Shown: in pieces, positions 40,495 through 43,590 of the stretch
How the letters are laid out: the number at the start of each line of letters is the position of its first letter
How positions within the stretch are numbered: the stretch's first letter is position 1
DNA from: Halomonas caseinilytica
GTDB lineage: Bacteria; Pseudomonadota; Gammaproteobacteria; Pseudomonadales; Halomonadaceae
Length of the DNA stretch: 64,000 nt
Reading direction: 5' to 3'
Assembly: GCF_001662305.1 (NCBI RefSeq)
Contig: NZ_BDEP01000016.1
Coordinates: forward strand, 124,001-188,000
The notes under the pieces: generated by a model
What the model saw: the letters and a program-made list of their open reading frames with translations, nothing else
Databases searched by the model: none
What the model was told of the DNA's origin: nothing
Program-made: the position numbers and the translations under genes

Positions 40495-41270
40495 CAGCCA
40501 GAACCCTGACTTGCCGGGTAGCAGAGGTCGAGGACCTCACGCCCGACGTCTTTCGCGTTTATCTGGAAGGCCGTGCCGAGGCCGTGGCCCACGCGGCCGG
40601 CCAGTATCTCGAACTCGATATCGGTGAGGGGGAATGGGTGCCTTTCTCCATTGCCAATGCCCATGGCGGGGATGGGCGCATCGAGCTGCATATCCAGCAT
40701 TGGCCGGAACGCAGCAACTCAGCCAAGCTGCGTGAGTTACTGGTGGAGGCCGAGCAGCTCAGGCTGCGCCTTCCCAGCGGCGACTGCATCATCGATCCCG
40801 ACAGTCGGCGCCCCTTGCTGCTGGTGGCTGCCGGCACCGGCTTCGCACAGATGAAGGCCATCGTGGAGTCGGCCCTGGCCGAAGACCCCGAGCGTCATGT
40901 CGAGCTGTGGTGGGCGGCCAAGGAGCGTCGGGATTTCTACCTGGAACGCTTGCCCCGGGAGTGGGCTGCGGCGTATCCCCATGTCCACTTTCACGGCGTC
41001 AGCGAGGCCGGGGTGGCGGCGGATTTCGATGACGAACGGGTGAGTGGACACCGTGGGCGCGTGGACGAGGTGCTGGCACAGCGGCTTGCCGATGTCTCCG
41101 CCCACGATGTCTACCTGTCCGGCTCGCCGGGCATGGTCTATGCCTGTGTCGATGTCCTGGCATCGCTTGGGTTGGTGCCGTCCCGGGTGTTTTCCGATGT
41201 CTTTGCCTACGCGCCGAGAGAGCCTCTGGTGCCGACCGTAGGGAGTCTGGTCAAGGAGAGAAGGGCATGA
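40491..41270 (+). CDS. Fre-like NAD(P)H-flavin reductase (ferredoxin-NADP reductase family)
   Basis: 259-residue FNR-family protein with an FAD-binding beta-barrel, then a nucleotide-binding domain with [13 protein letters not shown] near 110-125 and a C-terminal [15 protein letters not shown]-type segment. It has no [2Fe-2S] domain. E. coli has fre at the same place after ubiD. The usual RPFS flavin-binding motif reads VPFSIANA here (the Arg is Val), so flavin binding may differ. ATG 40491 overlaps the ubiD stop. I infer a flavin reductase; the substrate is not shown. Confidence 0.82.
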
Positions 41271-41980
41271 GCGCGGCACCGATCCTGATCACCGGCGGGG
41301 CACAGCGACTCGGTCGGCACTGTGCCGAGCGGTTGTGTGACGATGGCCATCCGGTGATCGTCACCTATCGTCGCGAACGGCCGGCACTGGATGCCCTGCG
41401 CGAGCGTGGCATCGTGACGCTGCAGGCCGATTTCGGTGACGAGGCGGGCATTCGCGATTTCATGGCGCGGCTTCGGGAAACCACCTCGTCGCTGCGGGCC
41501 ATCGTCCATAATGCCAGCGACTGGTTACCCGATGCCGAGGGCGGTGAGGCCGGCACCAACTTCGAGCACCTGTTCCGGGTGCACATGCTGGCGCCTTACC
41601 TGATCAACCTCGAGGCGCGCGAGCTTCTCGAGGCGTGCGGCGAGCCGTTGCGCGACATCGTGCACATGACCGACTACGTGGCGACCCGAGGATCGCGCAA
41701 GCATATCGCCTATGCGGCTTCCAAGGCGGGGCTGGAGAACCTGACGCTGTCCTTTGCCGCCCGCTATGCCCCCACGATCCAGGTCAACGCCATCGCGCCG
41801 GCCATGATCATGCTGGGCGAGAACGACGATGAGGCCTATGCGGAGAAGGCCAGGGCCAAGTCGGCGATGGCCACGATTCCCGGCCCCGGCGTGATCTACG
41901 AGAGCCTGCGCTATCTGCTCGACAACCGCTATGTGACCGGGACGACACTGCCGGTGGATGGCGGCCGACACCTGCGCTAG
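41267..41980 (+). CDS. folM: Short-chain dehydrogenase, FolM-type dihydromonapterin/dihydrofolate reductase
   Basis: 237-residue SDR-fold NADPH enzyme. The cofactor motif reads TGGAQRLG near residues 9-16, in the FolM style rather than the usual TGxxxGIG. The catalytic region has HMTDYVATRG and YAASKAG. FolM reduces dihydromonapterin (and weakly dihydrofolate). It overlaps fre by four bases and closes the ubiD-fre-folM unit. The call rests on the TGGAQRLG motif and length; another SDR substrate is possible. Confidence 0.82.
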   Translation: MSAAPILITGGAQRLGRHCAERLCDDGHPVIVTYRRERPALDALRERGIVTLQADFGDEAGIRDFMARLRETTSSLRAIVHNASDWLPDAEGGEAGTNFEHLFRVHMLAPYLINLEARELLEACGEPLRDIVHMTDYVATRGSRKHIAYAASKAGLENLTLSFAARYAPTIQVNAIAPAMIMLGENDDEAYAEKARAKSAMATIPGPGVIYESLRYLLDNRYVTGTTLPVDGGRHLR

Positions 41981-42013
41981 TGATGCCATCGACGGTGTGG
42001 AGCACATGAGCGC

Positions 42014-42042
42014 TTGTCATCGGCGTCACGACACGGCAGGAT
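42014..42042 (+). promoter_or_regulatory. Candidate promoter for the aroG leader
   Basis: TTGTCA (42014-42019), 17-bp spacer, CAGGAT (42037-42042). The -35 is good and the -10 is poor. It would start RNA just before the ribosome-binding site of leader peptide 1. Confidence 0.4.
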
Positions 42043-42067
42043 GTTGGGGAGATTTCAGGAGACGACC

Positions 42068-42202
42068 ATGCCCGCGAGCCCTTGCACCCGATTCCTACGT
42101 TCCGCCCCGCAGGCGGCGTATGGTCGTGGGCAGCGTTTCGAGGGCCGGTGGCCCGGCTATCGCTATTGGTTTAGCGACGGCGTGCCGGCGGTCGTGTCCT
42201 GA
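42068..42202 (+). CDS. Putative aromatic leader peptide 1 (attenuator)
   Basis: 44-codon ORF behind a strong AGGAG (42057-42061, 6-base spacing). It has 8 aromatic residues, four of them in the run GYRYWFS (residues 30-36: Tyr, Tyr, Trp, Phe). It is not recognised as any protein family. It is followed 63 nt later by the start of a Rho-independent terminator and then the DAHP-synthase gene. This is the layout of translational attenuation by charged tRNA-Tyr/Trp/Phe, as in trp and phe leaders. Inference only; no expression data. Confidence 0.6.
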   Translation: MPASPCTRFLRSAPQAAYGRGQRFEGRWPGYRYWFSDGVPAVVS

Positions 42203-42299
42203 CGCCAAGACAGCGAAGGACACCACCGCGAGGCTCGCCCCACCCAGGGTTGCCTCCATCGACGAAACCCCCGGACGGCAACCCCGCCCGGGGGTTTTG
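42190..42299 (+). promoter_or_regulatory. Attenuator RNA with alternative pairings upstream of aroG
   Basis: The terminator arms are 42265-42274 and 42288-42297 (AAACCCCCGG / CCGGGGGTTT, 10 bp) followed by TTTTGTGTTTTGT. GGGTTGCC (42247-42254) pairs perfectly with GGCAACCC (42277-42284) in the terminator loop, an antiterminator that interleaves with the terminator. GAGGC/GCCTC (42230-42234 with 42252-42256) could sequester that antiterminator. A further 9-of-10 pairing (42190-42199 with 42218-42227) spans the leader stop codon. Pairings were found by eye; no energies were calculated. Confidence 0.6.
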
Positions 42300-42334
42300 T
42301 GTTTTGTCCCATGCATTCATCGAGGAGAACGACC

Positions 42335-42502
42335 ATGACCGTCAACCATCGCTTCCATGCCGACCGCCGTATCCTGGGACGGGACTATTACGGTTACGGC
42401 TGGCGATTTAGCGTTGCGTGGTCGGGCCTGGATGCCACCTCCGACCGTGAGCTTGCCGGTGGCACGACGACAGCCAATCGATGTTCACGCTCACGGAGTT
42501 GA
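42335..42502 (+). CDS. Putative aromatic leader peptide 2
   Basis: 55-codon ORF behind GAGGAG (42322-42327). Both leaders share the AGGAGA(A)CGACCATG context. Aromatic residues cluster at 18-29 (DYYGYGWRFSVAW), and GYGWRFS resembles GYRYWFS of leader 1. It stops 5 nt before the aroG start. GGTCGG (42420-42425, touching Trp29) can pair with CCGACC (42441-42446), exclusive of TGCCACC (42433-42439) with GGTGGCA (42458-42464); neither has a U tract, so control could be of translation rather than termination. Length and overlap with the end of the leader make this less certain than leader 1. Confidence 0.5.
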   Translation: MTVNHRFHADRRILGRDYYGYGWRFSVAWSGLDATSDRELAGGTTTANRCSRSRS

Positions 42503-42507
42503 AGCTC

Positions 42508-43590
42508 ATGAATGCCCCCGTTTCCTCGCTTTCTCGACACGCCCTGACCGACCGTACCGGCGAGACTGTCTTGCCAACCCCGGAAGCACTTCGTCACGAC
42601 GTCTCGCTTGCCACGCCGCTCGCCGGTCGTATCCAGCAACACCGCCAGGCCATCCGTGACATCCTTGCCGGCCGCGATGACCGTCTGCTGGTGATCGTCG
42701 GCCCCTGTTCGATTCATGATCCCGTCGCCGCCCTCGACTATGCTCGCCGCCTGGCCGAGCTGGCACCGCGTATCGACGATCGCATCCTACCGGTGATGCG
42801 GGTCTATGTAGAAAAACCTCGCACTACCGTGGGCTGGAAGGGGCTGGCCTATGACCCGGATCTCAATGGTCGCGGTGACATGGCGCGGGGCCTTTCGCTG
42901 TCGCGCCGACTGATGCGAGACATCGCTGAACTGGGGCTGCCGGTCGCCACCGAACTCTTGCAGCCGATGCTGGCCGCCTATCTGGACGACCTGCTGTCCT
43001 GGGTCGCCATCGGGGCGCGTACCACGGAGTCCCAGCTGCATCGGGAACTGGCTAGCGGGCTCGAGGCCGTCGTGGGGTTCAAGAATGCCACCAGCGGAGA
43101 CATCGGAGTCGCGCTGGATGCCATGCATGCCGCTCGGCACCCTCATCAGCATTTCGCCATGGCGCCGGATGGAAGCCCGGTGGTGCGCGAGACTGCCGGC
43201 AATCCTCACACCCATGTGGTCCTGCGGGGCGGGCACGGTGAACCCAATTACCGGGCTCCCCAGGTGGCGGCGAGTCGCCGGGCCCTGGCGGACGCGGGTC
43301 TCTCGCCGCGCCTGATGGTGGACTGCAGCCATGCCAATGCCCGCAAGGACCATCGACGCCAGAGCGAAGTGATGCTCGACGTGCTGGGGCAACGCCTGGC
43401 GGGCGACGATGCCTTGATCGGCCTGATGCTCGAGAGCCACATCCACGAGGGCAAGCAGCCTCTCGAACCCGATCATCTACGCTATGGCGTCTCGGTGACC
43501 GATGCCTGCATCGGCTGGGAGACGACCGAGCACCTGTTGCTGACGGCGGCCGAGAAGTTGCGCCGGGCTTCGCCCGGCGCTGGAAGTTGA
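42508..43590 (+). CDS. aroG: 3-deoxy-7-phosphoheptulonate (DAHP) synthase, class I
   Basis: First step of the shikimate pathway, joining phosphoenolpyruvate and erythrose 4-phosphate. It has 360 residues, the length of AroF/G/H. Typical motifs are VIVGPCSIHDP, RVYVEKPRTTVGWKGLAYDP, ELLQPMLAAY, GARTTESQ, KNATSGD and VDCSHANARKDH. I chose ATG 42508 because GGAG (42495-42498) lies 9 bases before it; ATG 42481 has none. The isozyme (Phe-, Tyr- or Trp-sensitive) is not resolved. It is preceded by a 527-nt leader region with two aromatic-rich small ORFs. Confidence 0.93.
   Translation: MNAPVSSLSRHALTDRTGETVLPTPEALRHDVSLATPLAGRIQQHRQAIRDILAGRDDRLLVIVGPCSIHDPVAALDYARRLAELAPRIDDRILPVMRVYVEKPRTTVGWKGLAYDPDLNGRGDMARGLSLSRRLMRDIAELGLPVATELLQPMLAAYLDDLLSWVAIGARTTESQLHRELASGLEAVVGFKNATSGDIGVALDAMHAARHPHQHFAMAPDGSPVVRETAGNPHTHVVLRGGHGEPNYRAPQVAASRRALADAGLSPRLMVDCSHANARKDHRRQSEVMLDVLGQRLAGDDALIGLMLESHIHEGKQPLEPDHLRYGVSVTDACIGWETTEHLLLTAAEKLRRASPGAGS

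Follow-up and report, generated by a model that had tools for sequence, protein, structure and literature searches.

Two leader frames before a DAHP synthase gene

The stretch analysed here, 64,000 nt of the Halomonas caseinilytica genome referred to throughout as the window, carries at 42508-43590 a gene for a class-I 3-deoxy-7-phosphoheptulonate (DAHP) synthase, and our subject is the putative control region that directly precedes this gene. DAHP synthase is the first (entry) enzyme of aromatic amino acid synthesis. The assignment follows from a match to the profile TIGR00034 (432 bits vs a cut-off of 173); because the AroG- and AroH-specific cut-offs were both missed, the name aroG is used below as a label of convenience.

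An earlier reading of the letters alone (the sequence-only reading) had proposed that two tandem leader peptides rich in aromatic residues, with a terminator between them, form a candidate double attenuator at this place. Both leaders are where it had put them, each behind an AGGAG ribosome-binding site, with the run GYRYWFS in leader 1 and GYGWRFS in leader 2. The hairpin that follows leader 1 (42262-42300) and the antiterminator interleaved with it are there as well, the latter as an exact 8-bp complementarity between GGGTTGCC at 42247-42254 and GGCAACCC at 42277-42284, and the stop of leader 2 ends 5 nt before aroG (42502 vs 42508). Two open reading frames with a ribosome-binding site and at least five aromatic residues out of nine occur in 42000-42507, compared with none in 2000 dinucleotide shuffles, and the RNA of 42050-42300 folds better than 200 out of 200 shuffles (z -5.0). 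The features of the region are the following.

42057..42061, + strand: Shine-Dalgarno sequence AGGAG of leader 1, from the sequence
42068..42202, + strand: leader 1, an open reading frame of 44 amino acids with control codons GYRYWFS at 42155-42175, from the reading frame and its synonymous excess
42179..42186, + strand: segment 1, GGCGTGCC, within the GVP codons of leader 1; 5' arm of helix 1:2
42232..42239, + strand: segment 2, GGCTCGCC, partner of segment 1
42230-42234 with 42252-42256, + strand: helix 2:a, GAGGC with GCCTC
42247..42254, + strand: antiterminator 5' arm a
42262..42300, + strand: intrinsic terminator hairpin between leaders 1 and 2, predicted by folding, with a U-rich run on to 42305
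42277..42284, + strand: antiterminator 3' arm a', within the terminator loop
42323..42327, + strand: Shine-Dalgarno sequence AGGAG of leader 2, from the sequence
42335..42502, + strand: leader 2, an open reading frame of 55 amino acids with control codons YYGYGWRF at 42386-42409 (run YYGYGWRFS)
42401..42410, + strand: near-invariant TGGCGATTTA, the Trp-Arg-Phe codons plus A, from comparison of relatives
42419..42425, + strand: pseudoknot stem S1, 5' arm TGGTCGG (CGGTCGG in most relatives)
42434..42439, + strand: pseudoknot stem S2, 5' arm GCCACC
42441..42447, + strand: S1 3' arm CCGACCG, overlapping the S3 5' arm
42445..42452, + strand: S3 5' arm CCGTGAGC, helix with the Shine-Dalgarno region
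42458..42463, + strand: S2 3' arm GGTGGC
42489..42496, + strand: S3 3' arm GCTCACGG, running into the aroG Shine-Dalgarno GGAG (42495-42498)
42508..43590, + strand: DAHP synthase, 360 amino acids, from the TIGR00034 match

The sequence-only reading had named the antiterminator as the pairing that interleaves with the terminator. The antiterminator stands, but two more helices, 1:2 and 2:a, lie upstream of it and govern it in our reading, and the GCCTC of 2:a overlaps arm a. Segment 1 reads GGYGTGCC and segment 2 GGCACRCC in most family loci; in the window their pairing has one mismatch, where most relatives have A. For leader 2 the same reading had named two mutually exclusive pairings without a U tract. 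Both are present (CCGTGAGC with GCTCACGG, and GCCACC with GGTGGC), but they are not two simple alternatives, since an H-type pseudoknot (S1 and S2) is set against a helix with the Shine-Dalgarno region (S3). Under nested folding the RNA of 42300-42560 is not special (z +1.4; 187 out of 200 shuffles fold at least as well), which is no surprise if the structure is a pseudoknot, since a nested model cannot score one. The pseudoknot also contains an anti-Shine-Dalgarno-like ACCUCCG, which might have a role.

Conservation and covariation within the family

Comparison with relatives bore out what the sequence-only reading would lead one to expect, in that both reading frames, their control codons, their ribosome-binding sites and the paired segments are conserved, with covariation. 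A homologue of the DAHP synthase was found in all 275 genomes of the window's family (E 0.001 or better), in some perhaps only a paralogue, and 90 family loci were compared: the 30 top-scoring ones and 60 chosen from the 275-genome list, some near contig ends being skipped. Leader 1 is present in 89 out of the 90 (missed in L057), with a ribosome-binding site by motif before 75 of the 89, and a hairpin follows it in all 90 according to a hairpin search, which was used instead of a T-rich-window terminator rule that found 52 out of 89 only, and whose placement is wrong for L061 and L067. Leader 2 occurs in 87 loci, the other three (L026, L080 and L083) having leader 1 and the terminator only; it is preceded by a ribosome-binding site in 87 out of 87 (AGGAG in 79) and contains at least four aromatic residues in nine in 83.

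The substitution pattern hints that both frames are read. Calculated for the stretch of six codons upstream of the core, the synonymous fraction of leader 1 is 0.47 in its own frame vs 0.20 expected, and 0.25 vs 0.29 and 0.43 vs 0.33 in the other two frames; for leader 2 it is 0.52 vs 0.23 in its own frame, and 0.15 vs 0.27 and 0.35 vs 0.35 in the others. These figures are descriptive rather than tests, as the sequence pairs are not independent. For leader 1 the excess is strongest in the leader frame, and we infer its translation from this pattern. The frame of leader 2 is free of stops in 87 out of 87 loci, a property that defines the stretch, whereas the other two are so in 38 and 5. Furthermore, 88 out of 89 loci use TTT for the last Phe of leader 1, while the other Phe codons there are TTT in 30 cases and TTC in 32, a bias that suggests a special role for the last control codon.

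For the helices around leader 1, the duplex energy of each segment with its own partner was compared with that of two kinds of swapped partner taken from other species, in 85 out of 89 loci (L006, L059, L080 and L083 lack the pattern, and the segments of L061 are misplaced), 60 of which are non-redundant. Helix 1:2 has -16.7 kcal/mol with its own partner vs -13.5 and -12.9 with swapped ones (own lower in 98% and 95%), helix 2:a -14.0 vs -12.4 and -12.1 (87% and 80%), and helix a:a' -15.1 vs -12.4 and -13.1 (70% and 80%). Unguided RNAalifold on alignment A2 (58 of the 63 non-redundant loci among the 89 with leader 1; L026, L061, L080, L083 and L086 left out) recovered the second half of 1:2, columns 47-50 with 125-128, and the terminator, and extended 1:2 by columns 53-56 with 117-120, where for example C-G becomes U-A in 13 sequences; 7 out of 19 pairs have changes on both sides. 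As judged from these comparisons, attenuator 1 is a chain of competing predicted helices (1:2, 2:a, a:a' and the terminator) with correlated changes. Leader 1 thereby presents a putative leader frame with a ribosome-binding site, control codons of the pathway concerned, a predicted intrinsic terminator, and covarying antiterminator and control helices.

The RNA around leader 2 follows a fixed plan in alignment A1 (58 non-redundant of the 87 leader-2 loci; A3 comprises 41 of the 58): the core GGCGATTT, then 9 nt on CGGTCGG or a close variant, GCCACC in the loop, CCGACCG, and downstream GGTGGC, the S1 core beginning 9 nt past the last Phe codon in 58 out of 58 rows. The H-type pseudoknot, with 7 bp in S1 and 6 bp in S2, pairs in 98.3% of 754 cells and has changes on both sides in 6 out of 13 pairs; on all five measures used the observed value lies beyond anything seen in 500 shuffles, and slid versions pair in 25-52%. 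When S1 is lengthened to 11 bp, 92.2% of cells pair and both-side changes are found in 10 out of 17 pairs and 65 cells; four of the measures again lie beyond all 500 shuffles, whereas 47 shuffles do as well on the number of pair types. A covariance model of S1 only gave one match per matching genome, in 207 out of 275 family genomes at E 0.001, and among 229 genomes of the class it matched the window's own genome alone.

S3 is weak on the fixed alignment (69%, and a slide of -2 has more both-side cells) because indels shift its register between clades, and per-sequence tests were used instead. In 84 out of 87 loci (L075 lacks the S1 pattern; L084 and L087 lack a Shine-Dalgarno site by the rule used) the own duplex of S3 has -11.7 kcal/mol vs -8.8 and -8.9 with other sequences and is lower in 86% and 82%; in the non-redundant set (n = 56) the values are -11.5 vs -8.8 kcal/mol, lower in 80% and 79%. 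S1 and S3 are mutually exclusive at their shared bases and both covary, which makes the pair switch-like. Leader 2 with its pseudoknot looks, from these patterns, like a translational switch, in which a leader frame precedes a predicted helix that involves the Shine-Dalgarno sequence (S3) and has an exclusive alternative (S1/S2). It would be tempting to see in leader 2 a decaying, functionless duplicate of leader 1, given that the two share a TGG..TTTAGC core and that leader 2 is absent from several lineages. We find this hardly credible, since 87 out of 90 family loci have kept leader 2, its helices covary and its substitutions follow a coding pattern.

The stop of leader 2 and an in-frame aroG ATG are -7 to +7 nt apart in 85 out of 87 loci. 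This proximity could also mean that leader 1 attenuates while leader 2 feeds ribosomes to aroG by termination and reinitiation, the pseudoknot tuning the coupling and stalling lowering aroG translation, much as leader genes near the next gene have been proposed to raise its translation by reinitiation, and stalling to lower it, in the passages cited from Korolev 2016 (PMC4833913). However, such an effect would have the wrong sign for feedback, and it leaves the competition of S1 and S3 for one strand unexplained. Also, at loci of the Rfam family P15 (see below) the leader-2 stop lies 29-84 nt before the nominal aroG start, so that tight coupling is not the conserved trait. We regard this alternative as unlikely, and return to leader 2 as a putative reader of tRNA charging.

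Within the family, even the nucleotides of the leader-2 core UGG-CGA-UUU-A (GGCGATTTA, with Arg CGA and Phe TTT) are near-invariant, and the same is true of another in-frame CGA (CGATGT, 42479-42484); no pairing partner was found for either. The count of 87 out of 87 for the core comes from rows located by exact GGCGATTTA, and a looser amino-acid search found 85, all TGGCGATTT; L006 has GGG in place of the TGG. Given that selection of rows, and the variants outside the family, the notion of an absolutely invariant core was dropped. One Denitrificimonas genome and two metagenome-assembled genomes have CGC, Halopseudomonas and neighbours have TTTTGC or other codons, several Alcanivorax have CGATTTAGC or CTATTTAGC with Trp after, and two Salinisphaera have TGGCTGTTTATC. 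A frameshift site at TGGCGATTTA was considered as well and rejected. The TAG stop of the -1 frame is missing from some loci, which have TTTATC, TTTACC or TTTAAC; we see no plausible way for the codons to re-pair after a -1 slip; and the spacing between the stop of leader 2 and aroG varies in frame. As to the role of the core and of CGA-UGU, our guesses are slow codons or a tertiary contact.

Nucleotide conservation of this strength beyond the paired columns (GGCGATTTA and CGATGT) is what one might expect if the pseudoknot were a riboswitch for an aromatic amino acid or a shikimate intermediate and leader 2 a mere translated platform for it, and four loci (L006, L059, L068 and L079) do retain the pseudoknot despite a sparse aromatic run. 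We nevertheless think a riboswitch very improbable: the substitution pattern of the preceding codons is frame-specific, the dense aromatic run is kept in 83 out of 87 loci, no Rfam riboswitch matched at the locus up to E = 5, and the pseudoknot is not recognised in many Pseudomonas that have an aromatic leader 2.

Wider distribution and the P15 family

Rfam RF00627, named P15, matches weakly at 42157-42294 in the window (24.1 bits, below its gathering cut-off of 70), from the leader-1 codons to the terminator. P15 matched 8 out of 115 genomes of the order (4 above the cut-off) and 70 out of 99 of the Pseudomonas family (67 above), and none of 14 control genomes. All of the 36 P15 loci examined (L092-L099 and L129-L156) precede a DAHP synthase homologue; they are the best-scoring ones, from two sets of 8 and 33 with 5 shared, and represent 31 of the 70 matching Pseudomonas-family genomes plus 5 others, with 4 out of the 36 scoring under the family cut-off. 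Leader 2 with the exact GGCGATTTA core is found in 32 out of the 33 loci of the larger set.

Rfam lists RF00627 as 'Gene', a Pseudomonas small RNA, and the passage cited in PMC2527527 suggested that P15 corresponds to a riboswitch. One could accordingly hold that the terminated leader-1 transcript is mainly a trans-acting small RNA, or a riboswitch (Livny 2008). The constant place of 36 out of 36 loci before a DAHP synthase gene, and a segment that contains a conserved aromatic-rich reading frame together with the attenuator helices, argue against such a main role, and we give it a slimmer chance still than a riboswitch in leader 2; the released leader-1 RNA may have a side role. P15 differs from the window's element in that the window scores 24 bits against the cut-off of 70 and that Rfam describes a small RNA and not an attenuator; it occupies the same position before the orthologous gene. 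In all 36 loci RF00627 is the leader-1 segment from control codons to terminator, read here as part of a probable attenuator, and its description as a Pseudomonas small RNA probably needs changing.

When named genomes were scanned for the leader-1 core and a terminator, 92 stretches were obtained, and a DAHP synthase lies downstream in 75 out of the 80 loci taken; in the remaining 5 the sequence ends 13-395 nt past the match. Their genera include Pseudomonas, Stutzerimonas, Halopseudomonas, Denitrificimonas, Alcanivorax, Alloalcanivorax, Salinisphaera, Halotalea and Vreelandella. Of the 80 loci, 48 have the leader-2 core in its exact form, and variants of it with other codons are found in Denitrificimonas, Halopseudomonas, Alcanivorax and Salinisphaera. 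Loci of Halotalea, Vreelandella and some Pseudomonas show a recognisable pseudoknot built on the same plan, S1 having 6 out of 7 pairs in most of the Pseudomonas listed. Of the two leaders, the first is probably the more ancient and more widespread; the second, together with its pseudoknot, may already have existed before Pseudomonas and the window's family separated, and may have been lost or remodelled several times.

Some further observations concern individual loci. In a more distant family (f20; L111, L112, L113 and L116) a leader frame before the homologous gene has a denser aromatic run, WWFGYGFYFS, and an exact-core leader 2 was not found in these four loci. In three Pseudomonas loci (L174, L197 and L206) the terminator is separated from leader 2 by an additional ~140 nt that all three share and that may be a small mobile repeat. 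A record named Endozoicomonas sp. G2_2 (L217) carries the leader pair and a DAHP synthase while the other named members belong to other genera, which points either to horizontal transfer or to a misnamed genome. The second DAHP synthase of the window's own genome (G000:C4:127373-128383, L031; 51% identical) has no aromatic leader upstream by the search rule. In the window, the gene directly upstream (41267-41980) encodes a dihydromonapterin reductase (NF005066, 335 bits vs a cut-off of 249).

A proposed two-stage attenuator and known systems

We consider it probable, from comparative sequence evidence, that the region is a two-stage ribosome-read attenuator of the DAHP synthase gene, in which transcription attenuation is followed by translational attenuation and both stages sense Tyr, Trp and Phe. 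In the first stage, under shortage, a ribosome lacking charged Tyr-, Trp- or Phe-tRNA would stall in leader 1 upstream of segment 1, so that 1:2 could pair, arm a would be freed for a' inside the would-be terminator loop, and transcription would read through. Under plenty, a ribosome at the GVP codons and the stop would mask segment 1, allowing 2:a and hence the terminator to form. The leader-1 stop lies within the 1:2 loop, and therefore a finishing ribosome should mask segment 1 and one stalled at Tyr or Trp should not. In the second stage, under shortage, stalling on the aromatic codons of leader 2 (Tyr, Trp and Phe) would let the RNA downstream of the ribosome fold as the S1/S2 pseudoknot; because S1 and S3 use one strand, S3 cannot close the aroG Shine-Dalgarno region with S1 formed, and the pseudoknot would block S3 and leave aroG to be translated. 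Under plenty, the advancing ribosome would cover the S1 5' arm and S3 would form. We infer from the helices the logic of attenuator 1, the directions of response, the kinetic order and the action of leader 2 on translation. The sequence-only reading had supposed that leader 1 controls termination and leader 2 ribosome access, a division that fits the predicted helices.

Several points weigh against this account. For leader 1, 14 out of 89 frames lack a ribosome-binding site by the motif used, and the U tract is poor (at most 4 T in 12 nt) in 48 out of 90 loci, that of the window itself being good. One of its other frames is also mildly enriched in synonymous changes (the 0.43 vs 0.33 given above), and its freedom from stops in 89 out of 89 loci, with 59 and 26 for the other frames, is not distinctive. 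The own partner of a:a' wins in only 70% and 80% of 60 loci, and RNAalifold joins columns 43-46, the first half of segment 1, to bases of arm a (144-147) instead of to segment 2, so that the claim that 1:2 leaves arm a free is not clean. For leader 2, the frame reaches the aroG start, and therefore finishing ribosomes would also open S3, with possible positive coupling. It is missing in L026, L080, L083 and L102, and in five Alloalcanivorax or Alcanivorax loci (L193, L194, L198, L209 and L228), where only 28-62 nt are present; in L006, L059, L068 and L079 it is sparse in aromatic residues (2-3 in nine), with pseudoknot and core retained. The pseudoknot model matches 5 out of 99 Pseudomonas-family genomes (E 0.01), and the shuffle statistics ignore kinship, which means that related sequences inflate them. 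Finally, the calculated accessibility of the Shine-Dalgarno sequence in 52 out of 58 loci, a weak calculation, comes to 0.35 when the pseudoknot is imposed, 0.20 when the S1 5' arm is masked and 0.32 for RNA from the S1 3' arm on; the value with the pseudoknot is higher than the masked one in 79% of the 52 and higher than the last in 63%, and the measure is blunt because S3 covers part of the Shine-Dalgarno site only.

A more specific version is a serial two-checkpoint attenuator, in which one tRNA-charging signal would be read at transcription and then, through the leader-2 pseudoknot, at translation of the same mRNA, with UGG-CGA-UUU-A as a programmed slow site, a tandem that spans the window's family to Pseudomonas, and a first half that has been catalogued as a small RNA. 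We put this forward tentatively, as a proposition with slightly less than an even chance of holding in full. If it is true, a single metabolic signal acts at two consecutive steps in the expression of one gene, the second time through a pseudoknot inside a leader frame; what Rfam lists as an 'sRNA' family would prove to be an attenuator acting in cis on the gene for the first enzyme of the aromatic pathway in Pseudomonas and its relatives, and a defined, swappable control region might become available for engineering aromatic production in such hosts.

Parts of this arrangement have counterparts elsewhere. The classical ribosome-mediated attenuators (the trp, pheA, his and leu leaders, as treated in the passages cited from PMC2659441) likewise have a leader frame rich in codons for the pathway's amino acid, alternative helices and an intrinsic terminator, whereas here all three aromatic amino acids are represented, a second leader follows the terminator, and that leader contains a pseudoknot. 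In Corynebacterium glutamicum, the aroR leader (Phe-Tyr-Phe) before the DAHP synthase gene aroF (cited in PMC11802643 and PMC7356990) is also a leader peptide that controls a DAHP synthase, reported to respond to limitation of Phe and not of Tyr; the passages cited disagree on its mode, one calling it transcriptional and the other translational, and they describe a single leader, in another phylum. Attenuation sensing Phe or Tyr has similarly been predicted for DAHP synthase genes with the Acholeplasma uORFC-13-1 motif before aroF (PMC8632094) and hypothesised for Escherichia coli aroF (PMC8632094; table in PMC2659441), in other bacteria, with one leader described and no second stage mentioned in the passages cited.

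Two tandem leader frames before one gene are known from the Salmonella mgtCBR operon (mgtM and mgtP), which its authors called a singular example (PMC3641672). In that case, according to the passages cited, the signals differ, being ATP and proline, whereas both leaders here carry Tyr, Trp and Phe codons, which argues against different signals, and the second has no terminator. Closest to leader 2 in plan is the LEU element before leuA in Actinobacteria, for which the cited part of PMC1262725 predicts a leader peptide, a pseudoknot and Shine-Dalgarno pairing with an alternative fold. There the run of Leu codons itself pairs with the Shine-Dalgarno box, and an upstream transcription attenuator is not mentioned in that part; here no such preference was seen between control-codon run and Shine-Dalgarno sequence (own -10.9 vs swapped -11.3 kcal/mol, lower in 36% of 56). 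Single attenuators of DAHP synthase genes, tandem attenuators, and leader peptides with a pseudoknot are thus each known separately, and searches of an open-licence library turned up no report of the combination proposed for this region.

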